Shown one piece after another: positions 26,009-43,411 of a stretch of 64,000 bases of DNA (position 1 is its first letter; the number at the start of each line of letters is the position of its first letter). The translations under genes were made by a program, and so were the position numbers. This stretch comes from an uncultured Reyranella sp. (GTDB lineage Bacteria; Pseudomonadota; Alphaproteobacteria; Reyranellales; Reyranellaceae): assembly GCF_945957355.1 (NCBI RefSeq), contig NZ_CAMFKM010000003.1, positions 124,001 to 188,000 on the forward strand, read 5' to 3'. The notes under the pieces are model-generated. The model saw only the letters and a program-made list of their open reading frames with translations, was not told the DNA's origin and did not search any database.

Positions 26009-26028
26009 GGGCTTTTCAGCCCCTTTTT
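26009..26028 (+). terminator. Rho-independent terminator after the phosphoesterase pair
   Basis: GGGCT-TTTC-AGCCC followed by CTTTTT: a 5-bp GC stem, 4-nt loop and T-run on the plus strand. It lies about 65 bp after the second phosphoesterase gene. It covers the stop codon of the integrase gene on the other strand and touches the left attachment repeat, so the element seems to have inserted at the end of this terminator. Confidence 0.55.
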
Positions 26029-27155
26029 GGCACCGGACTGGCACCGAGGGCCCGATTGATCGCTTCGGCCGCCGCGGCGTCGTCCTTCTCGAAAAGGTGG
26101 GCATAGATCGCCAGCGTGATCGTCGGCTTAGCGTGACCGAGGCGCGTGCTGATCAGCACCACGTCAAGCCCGGCGGCGATCAACTGCGACGCATGCGTGT
26201 GTCTCAGCCCGTGAAAATGCAGGTCTGCGGCATCGGCCCGCCGCCAGTCGCGCGAAAGGTTCGACGGCCGCTTGATGCCGCCGTGGCCAGCAGGATAGAC
26301 CAGCGCATCGTCGCCAGGCTTACCGAGGCCGAGCGCAAGCCGCAGCTCGAGCTGCTGCCGGCGGAGATCCCGAAGGGCTTCGATGACGATGTCCGGCGCG
26401 GTGATCGAGCGGATACCGGCTTTGGTCTTCGGCGCCTTCACGGCCAGCGGCTCGCCGTGCACCTCCTCGACGCTCTCCCTGACGTGGATGACCTTCTTGT
26501 CGAGGTCGACGTTCGCCCAGCGCAGGGCACAGATTTCGCCGGCCCTGAGGCCGCAGAACAGCGCCAGCATGGCAGGGGCGAACATCGGCGTTCCGCGAAG
26601 TTTTTCGACGACGCCCTCGATCTCGCCAGCGCGGATGATCTCGACTTCGTCGTTGGGCACCTTGGGCGACCGCTGGCCCTCTCTGCCGGCAACGTTGTGG
26701 GTGACGATCTTGTGCCTCACGGCATCGGCCAGTGCCTTAGAGAGGAGGCGATGGCAGTGGCGGACGGTGCGCGGCGCCAGCGGCGTGTCGCGCAACTTCT
26801 TGTGCCAACCCTCGACATCGGTGGTCGAGAGACGCTGCACCGCGATCGCGCCGATGTGCGGGCGGATGTGTAGGTCGAGGATATCGCCGTAGCGCTTGAA
26901 GCTGTGGGGTCCGATCTCGCCGGCAGAATGCCATAGGTCTATGCGCGACCGGATGTGATCGGCGAGGGCGAGCTTGGACGGCTCGACGAAGGTGCCCTTG
27001 CCGATCGCCGCGAGCTGCTCATTGAGCTTGGCCTGGGCATCCTTCTTGCCGCCTCTGACGGTGACGTACTGCGTGTTGCGCTTCCCATCGGCGGATGGTG
27101 CGTCGAATTTCAGGCGCCAGGATGACTTGCCGCGACGGGTGATGGTGCCCTTCAT
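26016..27155 (-). CDS. int: Tyrosine-type site-specific integrase
   Basis: A 379-residue phage-type integrase. A basic N-terminal arm-binding part (TRRGKSSWRLKF) is followed by a SAM-like core-binding domain at about 60-150 and a catalytic domain. Catalytic residues are visible: Arg204 (CGLRAGEICALRW), Lys243 region (KAPKTKAG), His315 and Arg318 (HGLRHTHAS), His341 (LGHAKP) and nucleophile Tyr351 (AIYAHLF). Its start overlaps the upstream RHH gene as ATGA. The last codons lie in and beyond the candidate attL core, so part of the C-terminus may be host-encoded. Confidence 0.95.
   Translation of the reverse strand: MKGTITRRGKSSWRLKFDAPSADGKRNTQYVTVRGGKKDAQAKLNEQLAAIGKGTFVEPSKLALADHIRSRIDLWHSAGEIGPHSFKRYGDILDLHIRPHIGAIAVQRLSTTDVEGWHKKLRDTPLAPRTVRHCHRLLSKALADAVRHKIVTHNVAGREGQRSPKVPNDEVEIIRAGEIEGVVEKLRGTPMFAPAMLALFCGLRAGEICALRWANVDLDKKVIHVRESVEEVHGEPLAVKAPKTKAGIRSITAPDIVIEALRDLRRQQLELRLALGLGKPGDDALVYPAGHGGIKRPSNLSRDWRRADAADLHFHGLRHTHASQLIAAGLDVVLISTRLGHAKPTITLAIYAHLFEKDDAAAAEAINRALGASPVPKRG
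26027..26040. other. Candidate attL core (14-bp direct repeat)
   Basis: TTGGCACCGGACTG, repeated exactly and in the same orientation at 43398-43411. The two copies bracket all phage-type genes. Both sites also carry a second GGCACCG next to the core, which may be an additional integrase-binding repeat. Confidence 0.6.
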
Positions 27156-27772
27156 ATGTCAGCCCCTGGTTTCGGCAGCCGATCGAATAGCGGGCCCAGC
27201 ATGTCCTTCGTCCGGTTGATCCAGCGTTGATCTTTCACGGTCGACTCTTCGCCGCGCAGTCCATCTAGGACGTTCTTAGCAAACCACTCGCCCCAAGTTT
27301 TGCTGTCGGTGGACTTCGTCAGAACGCGCATGGTTTCGAGGAACCGTTCGTTGGAAATATTGGGCTGTTCCGTCCACTTGGGGGGCTTAAACTTCTCAAG
27401 GATCGTGGCGGCCGCCTTCTGGGCCTGTTCGTAGGCGAAGCGATCATCAAGCCAAGAAGCACCCTCATTTCCGGTCGGGCTGTGCCTGTAGCCGGACGCG
27501 CGACCAGCATCAGCCATTGCCCGCGCCATGACGACCAGCAGGGCAGCGGCTTCGCGGCCGTAGGCCAACTCCATCATTTCCCACATTAGTTCGGCTCGCT
27601 CGAACGAGCGCTCAATCCGATATTCGACCTCCTGGCTGAGCGTGCGCCCTTCCTCTTCGGCCGATTGTTCAAGCTGGCGGCGCAGCCTCTCTCGGATCGT
27701 CACCGAAAGCTTGTAGCTACGTCGACTGTCAGGCTTCAGCGGCGGGCGACCCCGGCGAGGTTTCTTAGGCAT
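27152..27772 (-). CDS. Ribbon-helix-helix (Arc-like) regulator upstream of int
   Basis: About 206 residues. After a basic GRPPLKPDSRR stretch comes SYKLSVTIRERLRRQLEQSA and TLSQEVEYRIERSFER, which is the strand-helix-helix pattern of Arc/CopG-type DNA-binding proteins. The remaining 140 residues are of unknown fold. The start MPKKPRRG is chosen for a GAGGG site 8 nt upstream; a TTGACA box at 27826-27821 would place the transcript start near 27791, too close to the earlier ATGs. It ends with an ATGA overlap into int, so it probably controls int expression. Confidence 0.65.
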   Translation of the reverse strand: MPKKPRRGRPPLKPDSRRSYKLSVTIRERLRRQLEQSAEEEGRTLSQEVEYRIERSFERAELMWEMMELAYGREAAALLVVMARAMADAGRASGYRHSPTGNEGASWLDDRFAYEQAQKAAATILEKFKPPKWTEQPNISNERFLETMRVLTKSTDSKTWGEWFAKNVLDGLRGEESTVKDQRWINRTKDMLGPLFDRLPKPGADI

Positions 27773-27797
27773 TAGCGCATCCCTCTTTTTCATCCCC

Positions 27798-27849
27798 CAA
27801 TGTGACGCAAATAAAGGCCTTGTCAAACCAGAAAGGGACGAACATTAAT
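27798..27849. promoter_or_regulatory. Divergent promoters sharing a -35 region
   Basis: TTGTCAA at 27820-27826 reads as TTGTCA rightward and TTGACA leftward. Leftward, ACATTG (27803-27798) is a weak -10 at 17-bp spacing for the RHH-int operon. Rightward, ATTAAT (27844-27849) is a -10 at 18-bp spacing for the HTH operon. Back-to-back promoters are typical of an element's decision region. Confidence 0.4.
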
Positions 27850-27884
27850 ATCTTCCGTTCAGCGGGTGAAAAAGGAGCCCATCA

Positions 27885-28085
27885 ATGACAAAGAAGACCG
27901 ATGAGAAGCCCGATGTCCTGACGGTCGAGGAGGCGCGAGCCCGGCTGCGCATCGGCAAGAACGCGATCTACGACGCATTGGCGCGCAACGAGATCCCGAA
28001 CATCAGGATCGGCAGGAAGTACTTCGTGCCGCGCATCGCCTTCGAGCGGATGCTGGCGGGCGAGACCGTCAAGACGGCCGCCTGA
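27885..28085 (+). CDS. Excisionase/AlpA-like helix-turn-helix protein
   Basis: A 66-residue protein. DVLTVEEARARLRIGKNAIYD is a MerR-like winged HTH start and RNEIPNIRIGRKYFVPRIAFE is the wing with the usual arginine pattern of the excisionase family. It has an AAGGAG ribosome site. It is first in the rightward operon and faces the RHH-int operon. It is likely to act in excision or as an activator of replication, as AlpA does in satellites. Confidence 0.75.
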   Translation: MTKKTDEKPDVLTVEEARARLRIGKNAIYDALARNEIPNIRIGRKYFVPRIAFERMLAGETVKTAA

Positions 28086-28351
28086 TGGCCCGCAAGCCAT
28101 CGCCCAGCGCGGCGCCTCCCCGAAGCCAAGAGCCTTGGCGGCTCAGGCGCGGCCCGTCGGCGGAAGAAATGGTCGAGAACCCGACGCCGAGCCTGCTGGA
28201 TAATCTCGACGAGCACCTCGATCACGTCGCGAGCGCCATCGAGAAGCTCGGGCGAGGCAGCCCGGAGAAGGTGGCCAGCGACAAGCTGCAGATCATCGCC
28301 GTCGTGAACCTGCTGTCACGGCTATGGCGTGATCGACGGGGCGCCGCCTGA
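28085..28351 (+). CDS. Small hypothetical protein of the element
   Basis: An 88-residue protein that starts in a TGATG overlap with the HTH gene. A Pro/Ser/Arg-rich N-terminus precedes a helix-rich part (LLDNLDEHLDHVASAIEKL, then DKLQIIAVVNLLSRLWRD). No known family. Its stop overlaps the upstream open extension of the replication-like gene, so the three genes are probably coupled. Confidence 0.55.
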   Translation: MARKPSPSAAPPRSQEPWRLRRGPSAEEMVENPTPSLLDNLDEHLDHVASAIEKLGRGSPEKVASDKLQIIAVVNLLSRLWRDRRGAA

Positions 28352-28437: not shown

Positions 28438-28953
28438 ATGCGCACGCTGGCGTATAGGTCCCTGTGCAATGGCGCGCGCGCTTTGCTGATCGAGCTGAAG
28501 GCCCTCTATTACGGCGGGGCTCGGACGAACAACGGCAAGCTGTTCCTGTCGATCCGGGACGCGGCGCTGCTGCTAGGCGCCGGCAAAAGCTCCGTGGCCG
28601 AATGGTACATCGACCTCTACGACCGCGGATTCATCAAGCCGCGTGATCGCGCCACTTTCGACTTCAAGGCGGGCGCGAAGACGGGCAAGGCCACGACCTG
28701 GATCTTGACCGAGTTCCCTTACGGCGACCGGCCGGCCACGCGGGACTTCCAACGCTGGGTGCCGACCCCGCAGTCACAGCGAGTGCCAGAAATCATTTCT
28801 CGGTCCGTCCTGGAGGACGGTTCGTACCCGACAGCGGACAGTCTGTACCCGACAGCGGACAGTCCACCCGAAACTGTACCTGAGGGCGGACGCTTTGGCC
28901 CCGAAACGGCATCGATCGGCCCTTCGGGTGTACCTGAGGGCGGACGCATATAG
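28438..28953 (+). CDS. Replication-initiator-like HTH protein
   Basis: At least 171 residues. The core (LAYRSLCNGARALLIELKAL, then NGKLFLSIRDAALLLGAGKS and YDRGFIKPRD) matches a family of phage and plasmid proteins with a winged HTH that sits in replication modules. Family resemblance appears to continue upstream of the ATG at 28438: the frame is open from 28333 and reads KGRSKKEPRHVRIYHTE just before it, so translation may begin at an unusual codon (a CTG at 28348 overlaps the previous stop). The last third holds four DNA repeats (28824-28947). Role in replication is inferred. Confidence 0.6.
   Translation: MRTLAYRSLCNGARALLIELKALYYGGARTNNGKLFLSIRDAALLLGAGKSSVAEWYIDLYDRGFIKPRDRATFDFKAGAKTGKATTWILTEFPYGDRPATRDFQRWVPTPQSQRVPEIISRSVLEDGSYPTADSLYPTADSPPETVPEGGRFGPETASIGPSGVPEGGRI
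28824..28947 (+). repeat. Four iteron-like repeats, probable element origin
   Basis: GTACCCGACAGCGGACAGTC at 28824 and again at 28845, and GTACCTGAGGGCGGACGC at 28876 and 28930. The common core is GTACC-GA--GCGGAC. Start-to-start distances are 21, 31 and 54 bp, close to 2, 3 and 5 helical turns. Copies 1-2 and 3-4 are read in different codon frames (YPTADS versus VPEGGR), so it is the DNA that is conserved, not the peptide. Iterons inside an initiator gene are known from lambda-like phages and satellites. Confidence 0.6.
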
Positions 28954-28974
28954 TTACCAGGGAGAGAGAGGCGA

Positions 28975-29262
28975 ATGATGGATGGCCCCGCTGTTGTCGG
29001 CCCACATCGGGACGAAACCACCTTGCCTGCCCGGCTCCGAAAGCCCCGCCTGCGACGCACGGAGGCAGCCGAATATCTCGAGCTGCGCCACGGCATCAGA
29101 ATCGCGCCGGCGACGTTGGCGAAATGGGCCTGCGTCGGCCGCGGTCCGCCCTACGGGAAGCTCTACGGCTCGCCCTTCTACGAGCCCGCCGCCATCGATG
29201 CCTGGGTCGCTGCCGAGCTGGCGCCGGTCGCCCGCGTCAACGTGAAGGACAAGGCGGCTTAG
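28975..29262 (+). CDS. Small helix-turn-helix protein
   Basis: A 95-residue protein; LRRTEAAEYLELRHGIRIAP followed by LAKWACVGRGPPYGKLYGS and FYEPAAIDAWV is the shape of AlpA/excisionase-type DNA-binding proteins, with an extended wing. It stands between the replication and head modules, the place where a small terminase is often found, so a DNA-recognition role in packaging is an alternative. GAGAGAG precedes the tandem ATGATG start. Confidence 0.6.
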   Translation: MMDGPAVVGPHRDETTLPARLRKPRLRRTEAAEYLELRHGIRIAPATLAKWACVGRGPPYGKLYGSPFYEPAAIDAWVAAELAPVARVNVKDKAA

Positions 29263-29346: not shown

Positions 29347-30543
29347 ATGTTCGGCAAGTTGCGCGCGCTCTTCGGCAGTGAACGGAAATCGATCGATGCC
29401 TGGTCGGCTCTGATCGATGCCGGATCGCGAACGGCCGCCGGGATCATGGTCTCGCCGGATCGCGCGCTGCGGTGTGTGCCGGCCTATGCCGGTGTCCGCG
29501 TCATCGCCGAGACGATGGGCACGCTGCCGATCCATCTGTACCAGCGCGCGGCGGACGGCTCGAAAACCCGGGCCACGGATCATCCGCTCTGCAAACTGTT
29601 GCACGATCGGCCGAACGGTTGGACCTCGGCGGCTGAATTCGTGATGGGCCTGCAGAAGGATGCCCTGACTCACGGCGCCGGCCTGGCCTTCGCCAATCGC
29701 AGCGGCGACCGCATCGTCGAGCTGATCCGTCTGCCGGCGGGATCGACGGCGATCGAGATCGACCGCGACACCCTGGAGCCGGTCTACAAGACCACGCTGA
29801 AGAACGGCGGCACACGGACCTATCGCTGGCAGGATGTGCTGCACGTTCCCGCGCTCGACGGCATGGCGCCGATCAAGCAAGCCAGCGAGGCGATCGGCCT
29901 CTGCATGGCGATGGAAGAGCATGCGGCCAATCTTTTCAGTCGAGGTGGCAGGCCTTCCGGTGTGCTGAAGAGCGCGAAGAAGCTCGCCGAGGAGACTGCC
30001 AAGCGTCTCAAGGCCTCGTGGAACGGCGCGCATGGCGGCAGCAATTCCGGGGGCACCGCGATCCTCGAGGATGGTGTCGAGTTCGAAGCGCTGACTTTCA
30101 ACAGCGTCGACCTGCAGTTTCAGGAGCTGCGGGCGTTTCAGGTCACCGAGATCGCCAGGGCACTGCGGGTGCCGCCGACGTTGCTGCAGGATTTCGGTCG
30201 CGCCACCTGGGGCAACGCCACCGAGATGAGCCAGAACTTCCTGACCTTCACGGTGATGCCGTGGACCAAGCTATGGCAGGGCGCGATCTCTCGGCTGCTC
30301 TCGACCGAGGAACAGGCGACGTACTTCCCCGAGTTCCTGGTCGACGACTTGGTCAAGGCAGACATCGCGGCGAGGTTCACGGCGTACGCCCAAGCGGTCC
30401 AGTCGCGGATCATCCTGCCGAACGAGATCCGCGCGATGGAAAACCGCGCACCGATCCCGGGCGGTGACGAGTTCCCGGCCGTGACCAGCACTCCCATTGA
30501 CCCGGCGCAGCAGCAGCGCCCGAAACCGCGAGCGGTGGCATGA
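29347..30543 (+). CDS. Phage portal protein (HK97 family)
   Basis: A 398-residue portal forming the dodecameric channel at one capsid vertex. PAYAGVRVIAETMGTLPIHLY and LLHDRPNGWTSAAEFV are typical of the N-terminal half; SRGGRPSGVLKS, RVPPTLLQDFGRATWGNATE and FTVMPW typify the second half. The start MFGKLRALFG is chosen by alignment to family starts; an in-frame ATG 20 codons earlier adds only Arg/Pro-rich residues. It overlaps the protease gene as ATGA. Confidence 0.92.
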   Translation: MFGKLRALFGSERKSIDAWSALIDAGSRTAAGIMVSPDRALRCVPAYAGVRVIAETMGTLPIHLYQRAADGSKTRATDHPLCKLLHDRPNGWTSAAEFVMGLQKDALTHGAGLAFANRSGDRIVELIRLPAGSTAIEIDRDTLEPVYKTTLKNGGTRTYRWQDVLHVPALDGMAPIKQASEAIGLCMAMEEHAANLFSRGGRPSGVLKSAKKLAEETAKRLKASWNGAHGGSNSGGTAILEDGVEFEALTFNSVDLQFQELRAFQVTEIARALRVPPTLLQDFGRATWGNATEMSQNFLTFTVMPWTKLWQGAISRLLSTEEQATYFPEFLVDDLVKADIAARFTAYAQAVQSRIILPNEIRAMENRAPIPGGDEFPAVTSTPIDPAQQQRPKPRAVA

Positions 30544-31082
30544 GCGAAAAGGCAACTGATTTCGGATACTCGCTCGAGTTCGACGTCAAGGCCGTCACGG
30601 CTGAGGGCGAATTCGAAGGCTATGCCTCGGTCTTCAACGTCGAGGATCTCGGCCGCGACATCGTCTTGCCTGGCGCCTTTACGAAGTCGCTGCAGCGCCG
30701 GCCGGCCGGCAAGGTGAAGATGCTCCGCGGTCACGATCCCGGCGACCCCATCGGCATCTGGACCGAGCTCGTCGAGGACTCGAAGGGCCTCCGCGCCAAG
30801 GGCCGCCTGATCCTGGAAACCGTGCGCGGTCGCGAGACGCACGTCCTGATGAAGGCCGGTGCGCTCGACGGTCTCAGCATCGGCTACCGGTCGCTGAAGG
30901 ACCGCTTCGATCGCGGCAAGGGCACACGCCTCTTGGAAGAGATCGACCTTCCCGAAATCTCGGTCCTCGCCTTTCCGATGAATCCGCGCGCGACGGTATC
31001 GAGGGTCAAGTCAGAACACGCTGCAGAGCACGCGCGGGCGCTCGTGGCCGAAATCAACCGCATCAAGGAGCGAATTCGATGA
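30540..31082 (+). CDS. Prohead protease (HK97 family, U35)
   Basis: A 180-residue serine protease that matures the procapsid. GEFEGYASVFNVEDLGRDIV starts the fold; MLRGHDPGDPIGIW gives the catalytic His, and MKAGALDGLSIGYRSL the catalytic Ser. It is translationally coupled with portal (before) and capsid (after) by ATGA overlaps at both ends. Confidence 0.92.
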   Translation: MSEKATDFGYSLEFDVKAVTAEGEFEGYASVFNVEDLGRDIVLPGAFTKSLQRRPAGKVKMLRGHDPGDPIGIWTELVEDSKGLRAKGRLILETVRGRETHVLMKAGALDGLSIGYRSLKDRFDRGKGTRLLEEIDLPEISVLAFPMNPRATVSRVKSEHAAEHARALVAEINRIKERIR

Positions 31083-32233
31083 GCCATATCCGTCGTAAGC
31101 GACACCTCGCGCCGTTCGAATACAAGGACGGCGGCGACGATCCCATTGCCGCCATCCGCGCGCTCGGCGTGTCGCTGGAAGAGAAGTTCGGGCTGGTGAA
31201 TGACGAAGTGAAGAAGCTTCGCGACCAGCTCGATCAGGAGATCGTGAAGCGCAACCGCCCCGGCGCCGAGAACAAGGGCGAGGGCGACGGCCTCGAGGCC
31301 AAGGCATTCACCACGTTCCTGCGCAAGGGCGACGCCGCGCTGAGCGCCGACGAGATCAAGTCCCTCCGGGTGTCCAACGACACCACGGGCGGCTATCTCG
31401 CGCCGCCGGAATTCTCGGCCGAGGTCGACAAGAACCTCGTCCAGTTCTCGCCGGTGCGCGCCGCGGCCCGTGTCGGCCAGACCAGCGCCGGCTCTGTCAT
31501 CATCCCGCGGCGCACCGGCAAGCCCACGGCGGGGTGGGTTGGTGAAACCGAGACGCGGCCCGAGACGGGCTCGACCTACGGCCAGGTTGAAATCCCGGTC
31601 GACGAGATCGCGGCGTGGGTCGATGTCTCGAAAAAGCTGCTGGAGGACTCGGCCGTCGACATCAACGCCGAGGTCGCATTCGATCTCGCCGAGGAGTTCG
31701 GTCGCCTCGAGGGTGCATCGTTCGTCGGCGGCGACGGTGTCAAGAAGCCGCTGGGCTTCATGTCCGATACGAACGTTGCCTACAGCGTGTCGGGCTCGGC
31801 TTCGGTCATCGCCGATGCCGACGGCGGCGTCGATGGGCTCATCGATCTGATGTATGCCCTTCATCCATTCTACAGGTCGCGCGGCGTGTGGATGGCCAAT
31901 GGCAGCACGATCGGCAAGCTGCGCAAGCTCAAGGATGCGGACAAGAATTACATTTGGACCGCATCGATCCGCGACGGCGAGCCGGCCACGCTGCTGGGAC
32001 GTCCCATCATCGAGGCGCCCGACATGCCGGACATCAGCGGCGGCACCTATCCGCTGGTCTTCGGCGACTTCGCCACGGCCTTCAGGATCTACGACCGCGT
32101 CGGCATGTCCTTCCTGGTCGATCCCTACACGCAGGCGACCTCTGGCCTGACCCGGATCCACGCCCGCAAGCGTGTCGGCGGCCGCCTCGTCCGACCCGAG
32201 GCCATCCGCAAGCTGAAGATCGGCACGAGCTGA
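31079..32233 (+). CDS. Major capsid protein (HK97 fold)
   Basis: A 384-residue shell protein. Residues 1-85 are the charged helical delta/scaffold part removed by the protease (KKLRDQLDQEIVKR). The mature part starts around AFTTFLRKGD and contains VSNDTTGGYLAPPEFSAEV, then VGETETRPETGSTYG, the E-loop/P-domain region, and later GRPIIEAPDMPDI and FGDFATAFRIYDR. All are hallmarks of HK97-type capsids. Confidence 0.94.
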   Translation: MSHIRRKRHLAPFEYKDGGDDPIAAIRALGVSLEEKFGLVNDEVKKLRDQLDQEIVKRNRPGAENKGEGDGLEAKAFTTFLRKGDAALSADEIKSLRVSNDTTGGYLAPPEFSAEVDKNLVQFSPVRAAARVGQTSAGSVIIPRRTGKPTAGWVGETETRPETGSTYGQVEIPVDEIAAWVDVSKKLLEDSAVDINAEVAFDLAEEFGRLEGASFVGGDGVKKPLGFMSDTNVAYSVSGSASVIADADGGVDGLIDLMYALHPFYRSRGVWMANGSTIGKLRKLKDADKNYIWTASIRDGEPATLLGRPIIEAPDMPDISGGTYPLVFGDFATAFRIYDRVGMSFLVDPYTQATSGLTRIHARKRVGGRLVRPEAIRKLKIGTS

Positions 32234-32300: not shown

Positions 32301-32723
32301 ATGCGAGACATGGCGAACAACATCACGCCCAAGCCGGTCCTAGCGCCGGCGGTGGGCACCGACGACACCCCACTGGTCGGGGCGATCATCGATCGGCTCG
32401 GCTACGATTCCCTCACGTACCTGATCCAGACCGGCACGCTGGCCGATGCCGGTGCCACCTGGACGGCTCTGCTCGAGGAGAGCGACGACAGCGGCATGAG
32501 CGGGGCGAATGCCGTGGCTGACGCCGATCTCATCGGGAGCGAGGCCCTGGCGAGCCTGACGCAGGCCAATGACGGCGTCTGCCGCAAGCTCGGCTATGTC
32601 GGGAACAAGCGCTACACCCGCCTGACGCTGACGCCCTCAGGCAACGCCGGCAACGCGCCGATCTCGGCAATGGCGGTGCTCGGCATGCCGTACTCGCGCC
32701 CGACCGCGAACCCGCCGGCCTAA
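32301..32723 (+). CDS. Capsid-adjacent phage protein, possible head decoration
   Basis: A 140-residue protein found beside HK97-type capsid genes in many prophages. It contains SLTYLIQTGTLADAGATWTA, then LIGSEALASLTQANDGVCRK and GYVGNKRYTRLTLTPSGNAG; the pattern is beta-rich. It is too short for a usual tail-tube subunit. A GGAG site stands 5 nt before the ATG. Decoration or head-fibre role is a guess from position. Confidence 0.6.
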   Translation: MRDMANNITPKPVLAPAVGTDDTPLVGAIIDRLGYDSLTYLIQTGTLADAGATWTALLEESDDSGMSGANAVADADLIGSEALASLTQANDGVCRKLGYVGNKRYTRLTLTPSGNAGNAPISAMAVLGMPYSRPTANPPA

Positions 32724-32729
32724 GCGGCG

Positions 32730-33404
32730 ATGTCCCGCGATCCGATGTTCGAGGTCACGTCGCCCGCTGCGAATGCCGCAGCGCGCCGGCTGACCACGGC
32801 CGCCAAGGTGCAGGCGGTGCGGTTCGGTGGCGCCACCACTGACACCGCCCTCATCGAGGCGATGATCGATCGCGTCAGCGCCAGGGCCGCACGGCACTGC
32901 AACCTCGCCAAGGATGCCAGCGGTATCGTGCCGACGTTCGGCCGGGAAACCTGCAGGGCGACTTGGCCGGTGCGTGGTGGATCGTGTGACGAGGTGCTGT
33001 TCCTGCCCTGGCGCATACCGGTGACATCGATCTCATCGGTGGTCGAGGATGGCGTCACGCTGTCCGCCACGGGCTACAGGCTGAGGGGCGGGGCCATCCT
33101 GGAGCGTCTGAGCGATGATGTCCCGGTGCCATGGTCGAGGGCCAAGATCGTGGTGACGTATGTTGCCGGGTGGCAGCTGGAGAGTGCCGATCAGGTTCCT
33201 CCGGACCTCGAGGCGGCCGTCATCGATCAGGTCAAGGCGATGTATGAGAGCCGCACCCGGGATCAGACGCTGCTGAGCGAGCAGGTGCCGGACGTCTACA
33301 GCGTCACATACGGCGTCGCCGGAGGACACGGCATCAGCGGTGACGGTCTCCTGGCCCATGTCGAGGCGGCCCTGGCCGACTACCGGGCTCCTACGATCCT
33401 GTGA
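32730..33404 (+). CDS. Head-tail connector (gp6/phiE125-gp8 type)
   Basis: A 224-residue adaptor expected to attach under the portal. Its first half has ALIEAMIDRVSARAARHCNL, then RIPVTSISSVVEDGVTL and a TGYRLRGGAILERL hairpin; VVTYVAGW and PPDLEAAVIDQVKAMYESR belong to the family end. Its stop overlaps the GTG start of the HNH gene by GTGA. Confidence 0.78.
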   Translation: MSRDPMFEVTSPAANAAARRLTTAAKVQAVRFGGATTDTALIEAMIDRVSARAARHCNLAKDASGIVPTFGRETCRATWPVRGGSCDEVLFLPWRIPVTSISSVVEDGVTLSATGYRLRGGAILERLSDDVPVPWSRAKIVVTYVAGWQLESADQVPPDLEAAVIDQVKAMYESRTRDQTLLSEQVPDVYSVTYGVAGGHGISGDGLLAHVEAALADYRAPTIL

Positions 33405-35563: not shown

Positions 35564-38500
35564 ATGGCTGAAGGCAGCACCACCAAAGTCATTCGAATCG
35601 TTATCGATGCCCGTGGCGCCAGGTCCGGCGGCGACGAAGCCACCCGCGCCCTTGCCGCCGTCGAGCGAAGCACGAACTCGATGGGCTCGGCGATGGATCG
35701 GCTAGAGCGCGCCTTGGGTGGAATCGGCGGCGCCCTTCGCGCGCTGTCTGCGGGGATGGTGGGCCTCGAATTCCTGAGAGCGGCCGACAGTGTGACGCGC
35801 TTCGGCAACAGCCTCCGCGTCGCCGGCATCCAGGGTGAGGCCCTTGCTGGTGTCCAGCAGCGGCTCTTCGACATGGCGGCTCGAAACGGCGTCGAAGTCG
35901 AAGCGCTGGGCCAGATGTACGGCCGCGTCGCGATGACGAGTCGCGAGCTGGGAGCGTCGCAGGCAGACATGCTCAAGTTCGTGGGCGGCGTCACCGACGC
36001 GCTCAAGGTGCAGGGCGGCTCGGCGGAACAAGCCTCAGGCGCGCTCCTGCAGCTATCACAGGCCATGGGGGCCGGTGTCGTCAGGGCCGAAGAATTCAAT
36101 TCGATCCTCGAGGGCGCGCTACCGATCGCCCAGGCCGCGGCGCGCGGGATCGACGGCATGGGCGGCTCGGTCGCCAAGCTCCGCGCCGAGATCGTCGCCG
36201 GCAACGTGACCTCGCGTGCATTCTTCGACGGCCTCTTGAAGGGCTTCGACCAGACGAAGGTGCAGGCTGACAGCGCCACCCGGACGATGGGCAGCGCACT
36301 CGCCGGCGTGAAGACGCGATGGACCGAACTCAGCGGCGCCATGGATCAGATGTCGAACGCGAGTCCGACGATCATCGGTGTGCTGGATGCCATTGCGGGA
36401 TCGCTGGGCAAGATCACCGCGGCGGCGCGCGAGAGCCGCGGCTCGCTGCTGTCGTTCATGGGTAGCGTCATCAGTCCTGATTTCGGGCCGCAAAAGCAGG
36501 CGCTGGAACTGCAGATCCTGCAGAAAGAGGCCAAGGAGTCCCGCGACAGGCTCGACAAGATCACCGGAACCGGGTTGCTCGCCAATGCCTCGCGCAATCG
36601 CGAACAGACCTTCCTCGATGCTAGGCTCGGCCGCATTTCGGAGATCGAGCGAGCTATCCAAGTCACCAATGTTGGCGGCAAGTCGTTGCCGGCGTTGGCG
36701 GACGATCCCGACAACATCGGTCTCGTCATCAAGCGGCCGCCGGCGTCGCCTCTGAAACCGAAGGGGGACGGCGGCGACGGCAACCGCCTGGCTGAGGCCC
36801 TGCAAGATGCGCAGCGCGAACTTGATCAGGCCCGCGCCTTCGCCGAGGTCGCAAATCAGGGCGCCGACGCCATCGCGAAAATGGAGGTCCACTTCAAGGC
36901 CTTGAAGACCTCGCAGGATGTCTTCTCGAAAACGGCCAACGACAATTCGGGCGCGGCGAAGGCGCTCGCCGATTCGCTGGAGAAGGCCGGCCTCGAAACG
37001 CTCAAGCTCAAGAACCTCGGCGATTTTCGAGGCGGCACCGCTTCGCTGCGGGATCAGAACGAATTGCTCGAGGCGGAGCTGCGCCTTGCCAACGCGCTGC
37101 CGGAGGTGCGGGCGAAGGAACTGGCCGTCCTAAAGACGATGCAGGAGGTCCGGGAGAAGGGCCTCGCTGACAACAAGCAAGACATCGCCGATCGCATCGC
37201 CGTGGTGGAGACCAATGAGCGGCTGAAGCTGCAAGGCGAGGAGCTGAAGCGCTCGAATGAACTGTGGACGGCGCCATTGAAGAGCGCGCTGGAGAACATC
37301 CAGAGCAGCACCGCCGACTGGATCGACAAGATGCTCGAAGGGCTGCAGCAGGGCAAAGCGGCCGTCATCGATTTCGGGCAGATCGGCATCAGCATCGTGC
37401 GCCGCATGGTGTCGGAATTTGCCTCGCTGGCGATCATGCGGCCGATGATGGGGTCCCTGGTCGGCGGCCTGGCATCGATCGGGCTAGTGAGCCCGGCGAC
37501 GGCGTCGAGCCTCGGCTATGGCCAGAGCATCAGCGGGCCCGCTGTGGCTGGCGGTGGCGGCGGGCTGGGCAGCCTGTTCGGCGGCGGCAGCAGCTTCTTC
37601 AGCCAGCCCATCGCGTCGCTTTTCCCGTCTTCTACGCCATCGGGCGGGTTCGCCAGCGTGGGTGACCTGCTCGCCAGCGGGCAGACCGGCGCCAGCGCGT
37701 CGGCCTCGGGCATCGGCGGCCTGGGTGGCATCAGTATCGGGCAGGGGCTGGGAGCGCTCGCCGGCGCCGGCATGGGCATCTACAACCTGGCCACGGCGAA
37801 CGGGAACACCGGCAAGACCATCGGCGGCATAGGCAGCATCATCGGCGCCGGCGTGTCGTTGATCCCCGGCATCGGCCAGATCGCCGGCCCGATCATCAGC
37901 ATCCTGTCGAGCATCGTGCCCAGCCTGTTCGGCGAGGGCGATACCCGCACCCACAGCTCGACGAATGCGAACCTGCGCTACGGCAGCGGCGGCTGGTACA
38001 CGACCGGCGGCGCCTACGGCTCCGGCGCCAACTCCGGCCAATCGGAAAGCGCGCTGCGCGGCACCACGGCGGGCATCGATTCGGTGTTCGATCTTATGGG
38101 CGGCGTGAAGGATGCCTCGAAGGTCTGGGGCCTGAACCTCTCCAGCTGGACCGCCCAGGGCAAGGACTGGAGCTATACCTCGAACGCCACGCACCTCGTC
38201 GATCCCAACGGCAACCGCGAAGCCTGGCGGATGAACATGTCCGACATGCTCGATACGGGCAGCGCGCAGGTCGCGATCCGGTCGATCCTGTCCGGTGCCG
38301 TCGGCGAGATCACGGACACCATGAAGGGCGCGCTGGAGCACATGCGCGCGGCTTCGATGGGCATCAAGGAGACCGCGGAGAGCATCGTCTTCGTCGACGA
38401 GGTCTATGAGCGTCTCGGCAAGGGCGCGCTCACGGTCCGGGCGCAGTTCCGCGAGCTGGAGAAGCAGTTCGGCGACATGACCGACACCGCGAAGAAGCTC

Positions 38501-39208
38501 GGTCTCTCACTGGAACCCGTCATCGCGGAGCAGAAGAAGCAAACGGAACGGCTCGGCCAGGACTACATCGACAATCTCATCAATCCCATCGCGGCTCAGC
38601 TGCGTGCCTGGGAGGACGAGAAGCAGTCGATCCTCGCGAACACCGCCTACATCGCCGAGCACACCGACGTCGTCGTCGACATGGCGCGGGTCAATGAGGC
38701 GCTGCTCCGCAAGGAAGCCGCGCTGAAGAACGAACTCTATGGCGGCGCGGTCTCTCAGCTCGAGGATGCCATCGCGCGCCTGATGCCAGGCGGCAATCTC
38801 TCGAACCTCGACCCATCCGGCACCTTTGCCGGCTTGAAGGCTTCCTACCAATCGACCTACGCACAGGCCGCTGCGGGCGATGCCGCCGCAATCGGCCGGT
38901 TCGGCGCCGAGAGTACGGCCTATGCCGAGTATGCCCGCAGCTACTTCGCCGGTTCTGCGGAATACGAGGCGATCCGCCAGCAGATCGTCGAGGCGCTGCG
39001 GACGGTGCAGGTTGAGGTCACAGGCGGTGCGGCCAACGGGAGCGGTGGCACGAACATGGCCGCTGAAATGCAGCAGCTCAAGCAGCTGGTGCAGACCGTC
39101 GTGGCGAACGATCAAGCCAAGTCGCAGGAGTCAGCCGAGCTGCTGGCCGTCATGACCCGCATGACGAACCTGCTGAGCCGATACGTCACCAACGGCGTGA
39201 GGGGCTGA
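35564..39208 (+). CDS. Tail tape measure protein
   Basis: A 1214-residue protein. The N-terminal tape-measure domain (about 70-270) contains FGNSLRVAGIQGEALAGVQQ and EEFNSILEGALPIAQAAARG. A helical middle part at 390-600 is rich in charged coiled-coil. A Gly/Ser-rich hydrophobic stretch at about 620-790 has putative membrane segments (IGGIGSIIGAGVSLIPGIGQ). The C-terminal part is again helical. At about 1.5 angstrom per residue it would specify a tail near 180 nm. It is the only clear tail-shaft gene here and lies directly after terL, ahead of the small connector genes. Confidence 0.88.
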   Translation: MAEGSTTKVIRIVIDARGARSGGDEATRALAAVERSTNSMGSAMDRLERALGGIGGALRALSAGMVGLEFLRAADSVTRFGNSLRVAGIQGEALAGVQQRLFDMAARNGVEVEALGQMYGRVAMTSRELGASQADMLKFVGGVTDALKVQGGSAEQASGALLQLSQAMGAGVVRAEEFNSILEGALPIAQAAARGIDGMGGSVAKLRAEIVAGNVTSRAFFDGLLKGFDQTKVQADSATRTMGSALAGVKTRWTELSGAMDQMSNASPTIIGVLDAIAGSLGKITAAARESRGSLLSFMGSVISPDFGPQKQALELQILQKEAKESRDRLDKITGTGLLANASRNREQTFLDARLGRISEIERAIQVTNVGGKSLPALADDPDNIGLVIKRPPASPLKPKGDGGDGNRLAEALQDAQRELDQARAFAEVANQGADAIAKMEVHFKALKTSQDVFSKTANDNSGAAKALADSLEKAGLETLKLKNLGDFRGGTASLRDQNELLEAELRLANALPEVRAKELAVLKTMQEVREKGLADNKQDIADRIAVVETNERLKLQGEELKRSNELWTAPLKSALENIQSSTADWIDKMLEGLQQGKAAVIDFGQIGISIVRRMVSEFASLAIMRPMMGSLVGGLASIGLVSPATASSLGYGQSISGPAVAGGGGGLGSLFGGGSSFFSQPIASLFPSSTPSGGFASVGDLLASGQTGASASASGIGGLGGISIGQGLGALAGAGMGIYNLATANGNTGKTIGGIGSIIGAGVSLIPGIGQIAGPIISILSSIVPSLFGEGDTRTHSSTNANLRYGSGGWYTTGGAYGSGANSGQSESALRGTTAGIDSVFDLMGGVKDASKVWGLNLSSWTAQGKDWSYTSNATHLVDPNGNREAWRMNMSDMLDTGSAQVAIRSILSGAVGEITDTMKGALEHMRAASMGIKETAESIVFVDEVYERLGKGALTVRAQFRELEKQFGDMTDTAKKLGLSLEPVIAEQKKQTERLGQDYIDNLINPIAAQLRAWEDEKQSILANTAYIAEHTDVVVDMARVNEALLRKEAALKNELYGGAVSQLEDAIARLMPGGNLSNLDPSGTFAGLKASYQSTYAQAAAGDAAAIGRFGAESTAYAEYARSYFAGSAEYEAIRQQIVEALRTVQVEVTGGAANGSGGTNMAAEMQQLKQLVQTVVANDQAKSQESAELLAVMTRMTNLLSRYVTNGVRG

Positions 39209-39209
39209 C

Positions 39210-39518
39210 ATGCGGGCCGCAAACGACAACGATCTCGCCCTTCCCGATCTCAGCGAGAGGCTACGCGATCTCGCGATGGCGGCCGCTGACCGGCTGTCCG
39301 CTATCAGTGAGTACGGCGATGCGGCATTCGATGCGGTGTTTCGGCGTGAGCGTCAGGAATTCCGGAATGTCGTGCGGGGGGTCGAGATCGTCGCGATGCA
39401 GATGGACGTCGCGATGATGCAGCGCTTCAACGCTCTTCAGAACGAGAAACTGCAGGCGCTCCGAGCCCAAGCCATCGCTCTCGGGATCGATCCCGATAAC
39501 GAAGCGACCTGGCCATGA
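39210..39518 (+). CDS. Small helical phage protein
   Basis: A 102-residue protein that starts 1 nt after the tape measure stop. It is nearly all helix (LRDLAMAAADRLSAISEYGD, then MDVAMMQRFNALQNEKLQAL) and ends in an acidic tail. It could assist tape measure folding, as small tail chaperones do, but there is no recognised family. Its stop overlaps the next start (ATGA). Confidence 0.55.
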   Translation: MRAANDNDLALPDLSERLRDLAMAAADRLSAISEYGDAAFDAVFRRERQEFRNVVRGVEIVAMQMDVAMMQRFNALQNEKLQALRAQAIALGIDPDNEATWP

Positions 39519-39841
39519 GCATCGTCGCCGCGGTCTCCCGCATCATCGATCAGCACGGCGAGACGATGACGTTGCAACGCGCCGGACACACCGATCTCGC
39601 CGTGAAGGGCAAGCGCGTCGCTGGCGGTTCGACCGAGCCCATAGGGGGCACGGCGAGGCAGCAGGAATTCGACGTGAAGCTGTCGCTGACCCAGCTGCTC
39701 GCATCGGCCTGGGCGAGCAAGGCCCCCAGCGCGAGCACCGATAGCATCGTGATCGATGGTCGTGTCCGCGCGATCCTCGACGTTCGGCCGCTGCGGCACG
39801 GCGCCGACGTCGCGGCCTATGTGCTGACCGTGGCGGGCTGA
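39515..39841 (+). CDS. Probable head-closure/head-tail joining protein
   Basis: A 108-residue beta-rich protein: IDQHGETMTLQRAG, a middle loop with GTARQQEFDVKLSLT, and IVIDGRVRAILDVRPL followed by a DVAAYVLTVAG end. This layout resembles small head-closure (stopper) proteins that follow connectors. The assignment is from layout and context only. It overlaps its neighbours at both ends. Confidence 0.5.
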   Translation: MSIVAAVSRIIDQHGETMTLQRAGHTDLAVKGKRVAGGSTEPIGGTARQQEFDVKLSLTQLLASAWASKAPSASTDSIVIDGRVRAILDVRPLRHGADVAAYVLTVAG

Positions 39842-40707
39842 TGGCCCGTGCGAAGCGCAAGAAGAAGGAGCGGGCCCGGCGGCTCCATCAGGAGCCGATC
39901 GTTAGAGCGATCGCCCGGATCCTCGACGCTGGCACACCCACGAAGTTCCGCTGGGAAAGCGCCTGTCGTCACGGCTTGCGAGGCGCCTATTGCATGAAGG
40001 GCTGGAAGTGGAAGGAAGCCGACGAGCAGGCCGCTAAGATCATCACATTAGCGCTTCACCGCATCGGCTCCGGCATCCGGCCTACATGGCGCGTGGCCCA
40101 GCTCGATCCGAGAGAGCACGAATATCACAGCTGCAAAGGATGCGGCGGTTACATGGGGCCAAGCCCGGTTCCGTATTGCAGCAGGGAGTGCGGCCACCGG
40201 CTTTGGAGCCGCAACTATCTATCGAGGCTCGATGATGCTAACCGAGCACGCGCGATGAGGGTGGCCCTCACTGGTGGTGCCGAGCTACCCCGGCCGCCCG
40301 AAGAGCGTCTCTGCCGCAGGTGCCGTAAGCCTTTCCCGCTTTCACCTCACCATCGGCGACAGCTGTTCTGTTCGCATGCCTGCAGCCAGCACGCTGCGCT
40401 GGGTCGCCTTGAGATGCGCGACTGCATCGTCTGCGCCGAACCGTTTAAGCCCAGCGCTAACAACCAGATGGCGTGCAACCTGCGATGCCAGCGGGCCGCG
40501 CGCATGCGGAGTCAGCGGAGGCCGTCTCGCGAGCGGGCCAAGTGTCTGCACTGCCATGAGTTCTTTGACCTGGCGACGACCGGCATTCCGGCCGCGTATT
40601 GCGGCAATCTCTGCAGGGGCAGGGCAAAGCGAGCGAGGCTGCGAGCCGAGGCCGCGCAGAAGTCTTGGGACGAATCGCAAATGGCGAAGATCGCGGAGGC
40701 GGCTTGA
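39841..40707 (+). CDS. Protein with four tandem CX2C-CX3C zinc-finger motifs
   Basis: A 288-residue, very basic protein. After a Lys/Arg-rich N-terminus, four modules repeat: Cys98/101-113/117, 158/161-177/181, 195/198-212/216 and 235/238-254/258. Each is CX2C-X(11-15)-CX3C, with an aromatic or hydrophobic residue before the third Cys (YCSREC, FCSHAC, ACNLRC, YCGNLC), like FCS/treble-clef fingers. The linkers are Arg-rich, pointing to nucleic-acid binding. It interrupts the connector module between 39515-39841 and 40707-41387, with overlaps at both ends. No function known to me. Confidence 0.75.
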   Translation: MARAKRKKKERARRLHQEPIVRAIARILDAGTPTKFRWESACRHGLRGAYCMKGWKWKEADEQAAKIITLALHRIGSGIRPTWRVAQLDPREHEYHSCKGCGGYMGPSPVPYCSRECGHRLWSRNYLSRLDDANRARAMRVALTGGAELPRPPEERLCRRCRKPFPLSPHHRRQLFCSHACSQHAALGRLEMRDCIVCAEPFKPSANNQMACNLRCQRAARMRSQRRPSRERAKCLHCHEFFDLATTGIPAAYCGNLCRGRAKRARLRAEAAQKSWDESQMAKIAEAA

Positions 40708-41387
40708 TGCCGGTCATCATCGAAGGCTTGAAGGGCGGCCCGCCGATCGGCCAGACCATCGATCAGTGGATCAAGGAAGCCACGATCGAGGCCGCCGAGC
40801 GGGCACTTATCGAAGAGGTCGGCCAGGGCTTCGACGACCATCCCGTCGTGATTACCGACGGCGTCATGGGCCGCGACTATCGATCGGTGAAGCCTTTCGG
40901 CGGGATCGAGTTCGTGGCCAGGACCACGATGGTCGACGCCGTGCTCTGGACGCTGGACGAGCTCAGGAAGCGGTCGCCGGTGCTCACCGGTCGCTACGTC
41001 CAGTCGCACATCGTGATGCTCAACGGCGCCTCGATAGAGCGGGATCTTCGCCAGACCCTGATGAGAGTGAAGCCTGGCGACAGGGTGCAGCTGGTCAATA
41101 CCCAGCCCTACGCGCGCAAGATCGAAGGCGCGACGGCCAGCAGGCGCACCGGCCGGGAAAGGCGGCGCGGATCGAGCCGCCAGGCCAGGGGTGGCGTCTA
41201 TCGTGTCGTGCAGCGTGCGGTGCTGCAGCGGTTCGGCCGGCAGCTCTTCTGTGACTTCGCCTATGTCCGGCTCGACACCGGCGTCCGTGTCTGGGGCTGG
41301 CAGGGCGGCAAGGGCGGCCGGCGGGTGCGGCGCGATCAGGTCTATCCCGCGATCCGCATGATGATGAAATCCAACGACAGGGGCTGA
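40707..41387 (+). CDS. HK97-gp10-like phage protein
   Basis: A 226-residue protein whose start overlaps the zinc-finger gene stop (TGATG). WTLDELRKRSPVLTGRYVQS, GDRVQLVNTQPYARKIEGAT and the basic TGRERRRGSSRQARGG loop fit gp10-type proteins, where the SGxLR/TGRY segment and a YAxxIE motif are usual; the end is DQVYPAIRMMM. These proteins are thought to sit at the head-tail interface. Longer than average gp10. Confidence 0.65.
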   Translation: MPVIIEGLKGGPPIGQTIDQWIKEATIEAAERALIEEVGQGFDDHPVVITDGVMGRDYRSVKPFGGIEFVARTTMVDAVLWTLDELRKRSPVLTGRYVQSHIVMLNGASIERDLRQTLMRVKPGDRVQLVNTQPYARKIEGATASRRTGRERRRGSSRQARGGVYRVVQRAVLQRFGRQLFCDFAYVRLDTGVRVWGWQGGKGGRRVRRDQVYPAIRMMMKSNDRG

Positions 41388-41389
41388 CG

Positions 41390-41857
41390 ATGGCTGGTGA
41401 TCCTCTTCGCGATGCCTTTCGGACCGAGCTCGACACCGTCATTGCGGCGGCTTCGCCGGCGATCCTGTGGGCGCGCAAGGACCTGCTCAACACCACCGAT
41501 CAGCCGGCGCCGCCACCGGCCGGGGCCAGCGCCGCGGCGTCGGGATGGTTTGAGATCGAATTCCCCGGAGGGACCGAACAACAGGTCACGTTCGGCGCCC
41601 CTGGCGCGAACCTTCACCGCGAACAGGGGCAGGTGACGATTCGGGCCGTCACCCGGCTACGTGCTGGGAAGACGATCCGCGACCTGGCTGAGACTTACAT
41701 GGCTCAGGTGCGCACCGGCTTCAGGATGCGACGCTTCACGGCCGGCGGCCTCGATATTCAGGTGACGTCGACCGGGGCGATGGGTGGCGGCGAGGACGAG
41801 GCCGGCCAGTGGGCTGAAAGCCTCGCCCTCGCGTACAGCGTCTATAACCGGGGCTGA
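41390..41857 (+). CDS. Tail-terminator-like protein (DUF4128 type)
   Basis: A 155-residue protein: LRDAFRTELDTVIAAASPAI at the start, then WFEIEFPGGTEQQVTFGAPG, RADK-like strand HREQGQVTIRAVTRL and WAESLALAYSVYNRG at the end. This matches small tail-terminator/completion proteins. It is the last head-tail gene; a major tail protein would be expected next but is missing. Its end overlaps the convergent gene by 16 bp. Confidence 0.65.
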   Translation: MAGDPLRDAFRTELDTVIAAASPAILWARKDLLNTTDQPAPPPAGASAAASGWFEIEFPGGTEQQVTFGAPGANLHREQGQVTIRAVTRLRAGKTIRDLAETYMAQVRTGFRMRRFTAGGLDIQVTSTGAMGGGEDEAGQWAESLALAYSVYNRG

Positions 41858-42138
41858 GGCGGCGGTGCCTTGATGGCGGCCAGCATCGCCCTGGCGCACG
41901 CCGCGTAGGTCTGGCGCTTGATGTCCATGCCGCAGTCGAGAAGCTGGCGGTAGTCGACGCCGGGCATGATGTCCCGGCAATTCCAGACCATCCCGCACGC
42001 CTTGCTGATCGGGATCTCGACGGGCTCGTAATTGACCTCGTGCTCGCAGGTCGGTTCGGGCTCGCCGGTGTTCCAGGCCATGTAGGCTTCAACAGCGTTG
42101 AGGAAGGTCTGCCGGACGTGGCCGGGTGCGTGTGTCAT
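41842..42138 (-). CDS. Hypothetical protein, reverse strand of the element
   Basis: A 98-residue protein, MTHAPGHVRQTFLNAVEAYM then EVNYEPVEIPISKACGMVWN and a GVDYRQLLDCGM segment, with five cysteines. GGAGAT precedes the ATG at 42138. It is read against the structural genes, like moron or accessory genes at the right end of prophages. No family recognised. Confidence 0.55.
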   Translation of the reverse strand: MTHAPGHVRQTFLNAVEAYMAWNTGEPEPTCEHEVNYEPVEIPISKACGMVWNCRDIMPGVDYRQLLDCGMDIKRQTYAACARAMLAAIKAPPPQPRL

Positions 42139-42345
42139 TGCGATCTCCAGTCGTTGAAAGGAGACCTTGGCGCGCTCCCCGATCACGCTCGAGCCGCCAG
42201 AAGGTCATTGGCCATACGGCCCCATGCCTCGCGTTACCGCGCCTGTGACGGGGTAAGCCGCCACACCTCAGAAACTCAGATCGGGTCGTTCCTGAGGAAT
42301 TGGCGCGGACGATACACCGGGCAGCGCACGCGCGCCAGTGGAGCG

Positions 42346-42471
42346 ACGCTACACGAACTGTAGCCTGTCACAGGCCCTGTCGCTGACCCTGTGACAGGCG
42401 GCGGATTTCCGGACGCGCGCCAGCGGCCACCCTGGCGGGGTGGTGCATGGTGCGGAAATTTCGTGTAGCGT
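42346..42471. repeat. Nested inverted repeats
   Basis: Outer arms: ACGCTACACGAA at 42346-42357 and TTCGTGTAGCGT at 42460-42471, perfect over 12 bp. Inner arms: GCCTGTCACAGG at 42363-42374 and CCTGTGACAGGC at 42388-42399, also perfect, and each inner arm is itself a dyad (CCTGT-C-ACAGG). It looks like protein-binding sites rather than a terminator, since no T-run follows. Confidence 0.65.
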
Positions 42472-42678
42472 GTCCGTGGGTGTCAGAACCCGGACCAGTG
42501 TGGCAGGCCGACCGTTTGGCGACGGTTGCCGAGCCCCGCGGCGTACGCGCCTTGGCGGGCACGTTCGTCGCATTTTAGAGGCGCCTTGGCGGGCGCGCTC
42601 CACTCCGACCTTATGGCCGGGGGCGGCGTGCCATGTCCAGCGGGAAACCGTAAAAGCGCGTCGACCAGTCTCACTGGC

Positions 42679-42730
42679 TGGTTCTGACCCCCCGGCTGCC
42701 GGTCTGCCACCGGCACGGCTGTCAGAAGCC
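42679..42730 (+). promoter_or_regulatory. Stem-loop upstream of the last accessory genes
   Basis: A core hairpin of TGCCGGT (42697-42703) and ACCGGCA (42709-42715) with a 5-nt loop; outside it GGTTCTGAC pairs with GTCAGAAGCC with one mismatch. It ends about 9 bp before the next start codon and could affect its translation. Confidence 0.4.
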
Positions 42731-42738
42731 GAAAACCA

Positions 42739-42990
42739 GTGAGCAACATCATGACCACCAAGACGACAATGTCACCACCGCCCGCAATCCGCCGGGAGGT
42801 ACTGGCTGCCTTTGCCGGCGCCCTGTGCATTCCGACGATCGCCACCGTCCCGAGCCGGATACCAGCGCCCGACCCGCTCGACGTCATCCGCCGACAGGCC
42901 GACCTGCTCGCCGCGATGATGGCAGAGGCCCGCGGCGGAAAGTGGCAGGTGCTCATCGTCGAGATGGTCGACGTCGGCGGTGCATCATGA
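42739..42990 (+). CDS. Small hypothetical protein
   Basis: An 83-residue protein from a GTG at 42739, or 79 from the ATG at 42751. The N-terminus has a hydrophobic stretch (REVLAAFAGALCIPTIATVP), then DPLDVIRRQADLLAAMMAEA and GKWQVLIVEMVDVG, a helix and strand. No family recognised. Its stop overlaps the next ATG (ATGA). Confidence 0.5.
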   Translation: MSNIMTTKTTMSPPPAIRREVLAAFAGALCIPTIATVPSRIPAPDPLDVIRRQADLLAAMMAEARGGKWQVLIVEMVDVGGAS

Positions 42991-43349
42991 GTGCCCGCCG
43001 TCTCCCGACCGAGATCGACGCCGCAGACGCGTTGCTGGCCCAGGCGCTGGCGAGCGGTCACTACGTCAAGACACCGGCCGACGAACAGTGCCCCGCTGGT
43101 GTCTGGATGCTCGTCCCCCTCGATCGGCGACTCGTCCGGATCCTAGAGATGGCCGACCAAGCGCGCGCCGACCTGGAGGATGACGAGCGCGAGCCCGATC
43201 TCGACGACGAGCCTTCGCTGGGGTCGTCTGATCGCTGCCGCTCTCAGGAGGATTGGTCGGAGGGCATAAGCGGGCGCGTCGTCGTCGACGAGGAGCGAGA
43301 CGAGGCGGCCTTCGTCCACCCTGTGCTGGGCTGCTTCCAGCCGCTCTAG
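42987..43349 (+). CDS. Small acidic EPSLG-type protein
   Basis: A 120-residue protein; the second half is acidic (DLEDDEREPDLDDEPSLGSS, later VVVDEERDEAAFVHP). The DxEPSLG segment followed by DRE/DEE is seen in many short alphaproteobacterial proteins of unknown function, often on prophages. It is the last gene before the right attachment repeat (49 bp away). Confidence 0.6.
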   Translation: MSARRLPTEIDAADALLAQALASGHYVKTPADEQCPAGVWMLVPLDRRLVRILEMADQARADLEDDEREPDLDDEPSLGSSDRCRSQEDWSEGISGRVVVDEERDEAAFVHPVLGCFQPL

Positions 43350-43397
43350 TTTGCTGCGGCCGGGGCGGCGGTGCTGCCCCGGCTGTTGGCACCGGAA

Positions 43398-43411
43398 TTG
43401 GCACCGGACTG
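43398..43411. other. Candidate attR core (14-bp direct repeat)
   Basis: TTGGCACCGGACTG, identical to 26027-26040. A partial copy TTGGCACCGGA stands just upstream at 43386-43396, similar to the GGCACCG doublet at the left end. Confidence 0.6.

Follow-up and report, generated by a model that had tools for sequence, protein, structure and literature searches.

A probable capsid-forming phage satellite with its own tape measure in an uncultured Reyranella

The window analysed here is a stretch of 64,000 nucleotides from an uncultured Reyranella sp. (contig NZ_CAMFKM010000003.1, positions 124,001 to 188,000; all coordinates below are those of the window), and this report concerns a compact phage-like element which lies within it. 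The element, which appears to be intact, spans 25978-43531. When its outer flanks are joined they match nine genomes of the genus, in each as one continuous stretch of about 1.3 kb (78-86% identity); as the joined flanks exist elsewhere as single continuous (empty) sites, the element is a 17,554-bp insertion. The core CCCTATG is found at 25978 and again at 43525, and the insertion point lies near the start codon, or 5' end, of a RibD-like gene (RibD/DHFR-like, 43507-44223). The interrupted gene remains open with a new start brought by the element (ATG at 43507), its product being altered from MKPYV... to MTTNRRPYV.... Another sequence, TTGGCACCGGACTG (26027/43398), was considered as the att core and rejected; it is part of the GGCACC direct repeats found just inside both ends. 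These repeats, also seen in two further elements whose integrases are related, are most likely the arm sites of the integrase.

The gene content given in the preliminary description (int, ribbon-helix-helix and helix-turn-helix (HTH) regulators, an HK97-type head, terL, a tape measure and connectors) was borne out by Pfam and PHROGs. The features are listed below from left to right; G025, G437 and G445 are other genomes of the genus which carry the same head, L212, L216 and L238 are related IMG/VR contigs, and C19 is a prophage of the window's own genome.

25978..25984, attL core CCCTATG, near the 5' end of the host gene; flanks match nine empty sites
26016..27155, minus strand, tyrosine integrase (PF00589, 1.2e-19)
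26029..26045, putative left arm-type direct repeat GGCACC-N5-GGCACC, conserved in G445 and G437
27152..27772, minus strand, ribbon-helix-helix regulator (Arc-like, phrog_228, 2e-4)
27885..28085, plus strand, HTH_17 excisionase/AlpA-like protein (PF12728, 1.8e-10)
28085..28351, plus strand, small protein (94% identical in L216 over 55 aa)
28438..28953, plus strand, protein earlier labelled replication-like, no family match (L216 94%, G437 33%)
28975..29262, plus strand, small HTH-like protein, kept in G437, G445 and G025
29347..30543, plus strand, portal protein (PF04860, 8.9e-91)
30540..31082, plus strand, prohead protease S78 (PF04586, 5.5e-33)
31079..32233, plus strand, major capsid protein, HK97 type (PF05065, 3.7e-83)
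32301..32723, plus strand, small conserved head protein (phrog_5707, 6e-29)
32730..33404, plus strand, head-tail adaptor (phrog_442, 2.7e-26)
33401..33772, plus strand, HNH endonuclease, packaging type (PF01844, 2.3e-10; phrog_2323, 2.7e-20)
33772..35430, plus strand, terminase large subunit (TerL), HK97-group-like (PF20441, PF03354, phrog_9; 47% to HK75/mEp390)
35536..35564, cassette junction; homology with the DNA of G025 and with that of L216 stops at 35536
35564..39208, plus strand, tape measure protein (TMP), 1214 aa, mosaic, with a TMP_3 N-terminal part (PF20155, 8.5e-47)
39210..39518, plus strand, 102-aa protein; other satellites with a tape measure have unrelated open reading frames (ORFs) of ~90-120 aa there
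39515..39841, plus strand, head closure protein Hc1 (weak phrog_161; 56% to the gene at the C19 head-closure position)
39841..40707, plus strand, multi-zinc-finger protein, conserved in satellites whether or not they carry a tape measure
40704..41387, plus strand, neck/tail completion protein (phrog_169, 3e-13; 60% to prophage C19)
41390..41857, plus strand, tail terminator (PF13554, 2.6e-4, and phrog_179; weak by sequence)
41842..42186, minus strand, 114-aa protein, coding score only
42400..42765, conserved stretch, candidate origin or cos (85% to G437, 73% to G445, 71% to L212)
42739..42990, plus strand, small conserved protein (G025 63%, G424 79%, L238 82%)
42987..43349, plus strand, small protein (G025 DNA 77% identical)
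43388..43411, putative right arm-type direct repeats, GGCACCGGAATTGGCACC, identical in G437 and G445
43525..43531, attR core CCCTATG, from the same empty-site comparison

The claim that tail tube, fibre, holin and endolysin genes are absent held up. Pfam, PHROGs and a search of the element with all genes called in five related prophages revealed neither a tail tube, chaperone, tip or fibre nor a holin or lysin. The prophage genes with a homologue in the element encode the portal, protease, capsid, small head protein, adaptor and TerL on the head side, and the head closure, neck, terminator and tape measure proteins on the neck and tail side, and nothing else. In the related prophages, as in 18 IMG/VR phage contigs (of which some are near-duplicates), the tail tube comes immediately after the terminator; chaperones, tape measure and tip come next wherever the contig extends far enough, giving the order adaptor-Hc1-neck-terminator-tail tube-chaperone-TMP-tip. 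As the tube sits directly 3' of the terminator in these phages and has no homologue in the element, the genes really are missing; a tube in this position was found only in elements with phage-type heads. The terminator had no solved relative by sequence search, so a fold search was needed: its AlphaFold model (pLDDT 75) matched mostly tail terminators or neck/collar proteins in the PDB, including the lambda gpU, SaPI1 and T5 terminators and R-pyocin collars, and this predicted fold supports the weak sequence call.

The same head is present in three other genomes of the genus (G025:C36, G437:C189 and G445:C19; portal 69-91% and TerL 84-93% identical), the genes of relatives having been called with a simple codon-usage caller. 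In all three, a tape measure and short connectors are followed by the end of the element, and the chromosomal elements, four in all with that of the window, are about 17.1-18.4 kb in length. A fifth element with this head, L212 from IMG/VR, likewise has a tape measure and no tail tube, which brings the other elements of this kind to at least four. Comparison of the right ends, the check proposed in the preliminary description, thus gave the same picture in G025, G437, G445 and L212, which stop alike, none continuing into a tail tube. The relatives are located partly in other sites and partly carry another integrase; G445 shares the target gene. The earlier statement that there is no decay also stands, with open frames and dN/dS values for the head genes of 0.11-0.52, indicative of purifying selection. 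The closest relative, L216, has fewer tail genes still than the element in the window, and in the more distant L240-L248 (portal 53-62%), of which stretches of 11-18 kb were read, heads and terminases were found and neither recognised tail genes nor ORFs of tape-measure size. Portal and capsid trees place the satellites, including L240-L248, in one clade apart from C19 and C14 with their phage heads. The gene order is also rearranged relative to the related phages, with HNH-TerL-TMP lying between the adaptor and head closure.

The block which begins with the tape measure behaves as a cassette. Compared with G025, the DNA of the window is 82% identical from the portal gene to 35536, which is 28 bp before the start codon of the tape measure, and beyond this point the G025 tape measure is unrelated. 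Compared with L216, identity is 87% up to the very same base, after which head closure and the zinc-finger gene follow at once in L216, which lacks tape measure, neck and terminator alike. L238 (portal 75%) is also without a tape measure, and in G437 the tape measure sits after the zinc-finger gene, not before head closure. Carriers and non-carriers are intermixed in the portal and capsid trees, in which support is too low to count events. The simplest reading of these alignments would be a single head chassis on which tape-measure blocks have been repeatedly gained, exchanged or lost, and this suggests that a swappable tape measure fits the satellite to the tail of a particular helper phage.

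The tape measure is itself a mosaic. Its first ~280 residues are of the TMP_3 type and are 51-55% identical to those of the satellites in G445 and G006 and of the phage G008:C42, whilst residues 407-1211 resemble prophage C19, which resides in the same genome and has a tape measure that is 65% identical to them over its last two thirds; the N-terminal part of the C19 protein belongs to other TMP families. The two proteins are of similar length (1214 aa in the satellite, 1257 aa in C19). A match to the solved tape measure 9occ covers the N-terminal domain. Used as a query, the tape measure gave no relatives in the genome-contig and viral-contig collections, and the best matches among phage records covered part of the N-terminal region only, the top one being 49% identical over 18% of the protein. 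In G025 the satellite tape measure (865 aa) best matches that of a resident prophage (857 aa), at 48-51% over the C-terminal half. C19 is a complete prophage and a candidate helper. Besides an endolysin it encodes chaperones, further tail genes downstream and a tail tube-like protein, and no second tube of that kind was found in the genome. Resident helper candidates were found for the window's genome (G000) and, plausibly, for G025. As a separate observation, L216, L238 and a phage with C19-like tail genes (L303) come from one metagenome (IMG/VR 3300001605) and may constitute a natural satellite-helper set.

Of the options raised in the preliminary description, it is the capsid-forming satellite that gains support, as the head-sharing relatives lack the same genes and the heads form a separate clade. 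We consider it probable that the element is an integrated satellite, similar to the capsid-forming phage-inducible chromosomal islands (cf-PICIs), which builds a chimeric tail from its own neck, terminator and tape measure and the tube and tip of a helper; we infer that it depends on that helper, that the tape measure is present in virions and that the element is induced and packaged. The satellite would make its own head from the portal, protease and capsid proteins, package its own DNA with HNH and TerL, and close the head with its adaptor, head-closure and neck proteins. As it has no tube, chaperone, tip, receptor-binding or lysis genes, these functions must come from the helper phage. The C-terminal two thirds of the tape measure, which resemble those of local siphophages, would dock on the tail-tip complex of the helper; the helper tube protein would polymerise around the satellite tape measure, and to its length; and the satellite terminator would then cap the tube and join it to the satellite neck and head. 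In phage 80alpha the TMP reaches from the neck, where its N-terminus touches the tail completion protein, to the tip, where its C-terminus touches Tal (PMC11661146), and the PLE satellites use their own TMP in chimeric tails, most transduction being lost without it (PMC12987554).

Several points weigh against this interpretation. Neither induction, nor a particle, nor a helper has been observed. C19 is the best match to the tape measure by a small margin over G008:C42, and no matching prophage was seen in the draft genomes of G437 and G445, that is, for two of the four satellites. The L216 and L212 contigs may be incomplete or erroneous, and in L216 TerL and int are frameshifted. A small terminase subunit (TerS) was not recognised in the element, where HNH and TerL were found; within the HNH protein, the HNH part also gives a match to phrog_4581, a TerS family. 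Nor was a primase recognised, the protein at 28438-28953 having no Pfam or PHROGs match; primase/helicase-type genes are carried by the relatives L238 and G445.

The main rival is that the tape measure acts as a decoy, competing for the tail tip and so poisoning helper tails, with the satellite itself using pre-made helper tails in the manner of a standard cf-PICI. Such a role would suit the resemblance of its C-terminal part to the tape measures of complete prophages and the existence of the close relatives L216 and L238, which presumably manage without one, and satellites do attack helper tail assembly, as Rta does in PLE11. However, the tape measures of the window and G445 travel with a terminator and neck protein, the lengths match those of the resident prophages (1214 versus 1257 aa and 865 versus 857 aa) as expected of a working ruler, and PLE tape measures are incorporated in virions (PMC12987554), so that we regard the decoy as unlikely.

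The preliminary description also allowed for a deletion just after the terminator, by which an ordinary siphophage would have lost its tail and lysis genes in a single event. This we reject as very improbable. Complete phages do have homologous connectors followed by the tail tube, and the connectors, capsid and tape measure of the element are homologous to those of prophage C19. However, the same genes are lacking in several relatives, and the rearranged order argues against deletion since one deletion cannot place HNH-TerL-TMP between the adaptor and head closure. In addition, the head genes are under purifying selection, both attachment cores are present and empty sites exist, and the head lineage is separate from that of the phages; neither the decaying genes nor the intact, tail-bearing close relatives expected of a defective prophage were found. 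A domesticated gene transfer agent or other host-owned particle, in keeping with the small genome, head genes, tape measure and absence of lysis genes, is scarcely credible, as clusters of that kind are inherited vertically and have neither integrase nor att site, whereas the element has its own integrase, excisionase-like gene and att core, nine empty sites in other species and relatives located partly in different sites.

Amongst the known systems closest to the element are the cf-PICIs (Alqurainy et al., 2023), as described in PMC10690885 and PMC10803314. The element shares with them its own capsid, portal, protease, connectors, HNH and TerL, a small size, an integrase with an AlpA-like HTH protein, site-specific integration and the lack of tail tube, tip and lysis genes, and its capsid clusters with tailless satellite-like contigs. 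Set against those same descriptions, it differs in having a tape measure and tail terminator, in that TerS and primase were not recognised, in the order portal-protease-capsid-adaptor-HNH-TerL-TMP and in its nearest relatives, which belong to its own genus or come from IMG/VR. As the lack of tail genes is one of the defining features of cf-PICIs, and as TerS and primase were not recognised, we call it cf-PICI-like and not a cf-PICI. The tape measure is not a unique difference, because a 2026 study (PMC12987554; legend of Extended Data Fig. 10) shows putative tmp genes both in sampled cf-PICIs and in PLE-like elements. The earlier remark on how unusual it would be for a satellite to have a tape measure is fair, but such a gene is no longer unprecedented, as PLE satellites use their own and some cf-PICIs have putative ones.

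The likeness to the PLEs lies in the satellite tape measure, which in PLE11 of Vibrio cholerae was shown to replace that of the helper in a chimeric tail (PMC12987554). The element is nevertheless not a PLE: PLEs use helper capsid proteins, whereas it makes its own head; their helper ICP1 is lytic and contractile-tailed, whereas the related prophages here have siphophage-like tail genes; and PLEs carry a chaperone (TAC) and a hub protein, neither of which it encodes (PMC12987554). The Streptomyces satellites MulchRoom and MiniFlayer, compared by description only, also have their own capsid and packaging genes and a helper tail, and no tape measure is mentioned for them in PMC10690885. C19, G029:C14 and G008:C42 are complete prophages of the same genus. 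Their heads, connectors and terminators are homologous to those of the element, as are their tape measures in the C-terminal part, but they continue into tail tube, chaperones and tip (and, as shown for C19, an endolysin) and have a different TerL. As putative tmp genes in PLE-like elements and some cf-PICIs have already been shown, the kind is known; what appears to be new is the lineage, the combination of a self-made head with a tape measure, neck and terminator, and a series with one head and different, mosaic or absent tape measures.

With regard to the remaining features, the integrase is 53-67% identical to those of G445, G006, G025:C47, G437 and others, and the best named sequence relatives of TerL are largely from Alphaproteobacteria. 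The protein at 39841-40707 contains several CxxC/FCS-like zinc-finger motifs and is possibly involved in late regulation or packaging. The stretch at 42400-42765, non-coding apart from the start of the 42739 ORF, contains GCGCCTTGGCGGGC repeats and is preceded just upstream by a perfect inverted repeat, CCTGTCACAGG/CCTGTGACAGG; it is 85% identical to the DNA of G437, compared with 74% for the head genes, and is a candidate replication origin, cos or regulatory site. PADLOC gave nothing convincing as to defence genes among the uncharacterised ORFs, and no RNA family in the element scored above the cut-off.

Other satellite-like elements were encountered alongside this one. A second type (G006:C26:28516-45768; L027, L028) has a related integrase (64%), a primase, helicase, ClpP-like protease and a 1127-aa tape measure, and no portal, capsid or terminase was found in it. 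A third, L124 (G025:C47:181345-195832), combines a related integrase, Toprim primase, AAA helicase and Phage_capsid_4 head protein with an 813-aa tape measure of another family and a small tail protein, the contig ending inside the element. Finally, L131, L132, L133, L134 and G440:C241 (L072) share a compact HNH-TerL-capsid-protease-portal-integrase arrangement with no recognised tail genes, in hosts from Caulobacteraceae, Oryzibacter, Rhodoblastus, Sedimentitalea and the window's genus; judged by gene content, capsid-forming elements of this satellite-like kind, represented by L131-L134 and G440:C241, make up a broad family.

The elements bear on the way in which satellites select and remodel stolen tails; chimeric satellite tails were first shown in 2026, and only in PLEs (PMC12987554). 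We give roughly even chances to the proposal that the block of tape measure and connectors serves here as a helper-choice module, in which a conserved chassis of head, HNH and TerL repeatedly acquires, behind terL, tape measures that are mosaic with those of local prophages and is thereby retargeted to the tail of another helper; the chimeric junction at around residue 400 would then split a head-side half from a helper-tip half. The elements described form a near-isogenic natural series with one tape measure (the window), an unrelated one (G025) and none (L216), together with candidate helper prophages, and with them one could test directly whether it is the tape measure that determines the choice of helper tail.

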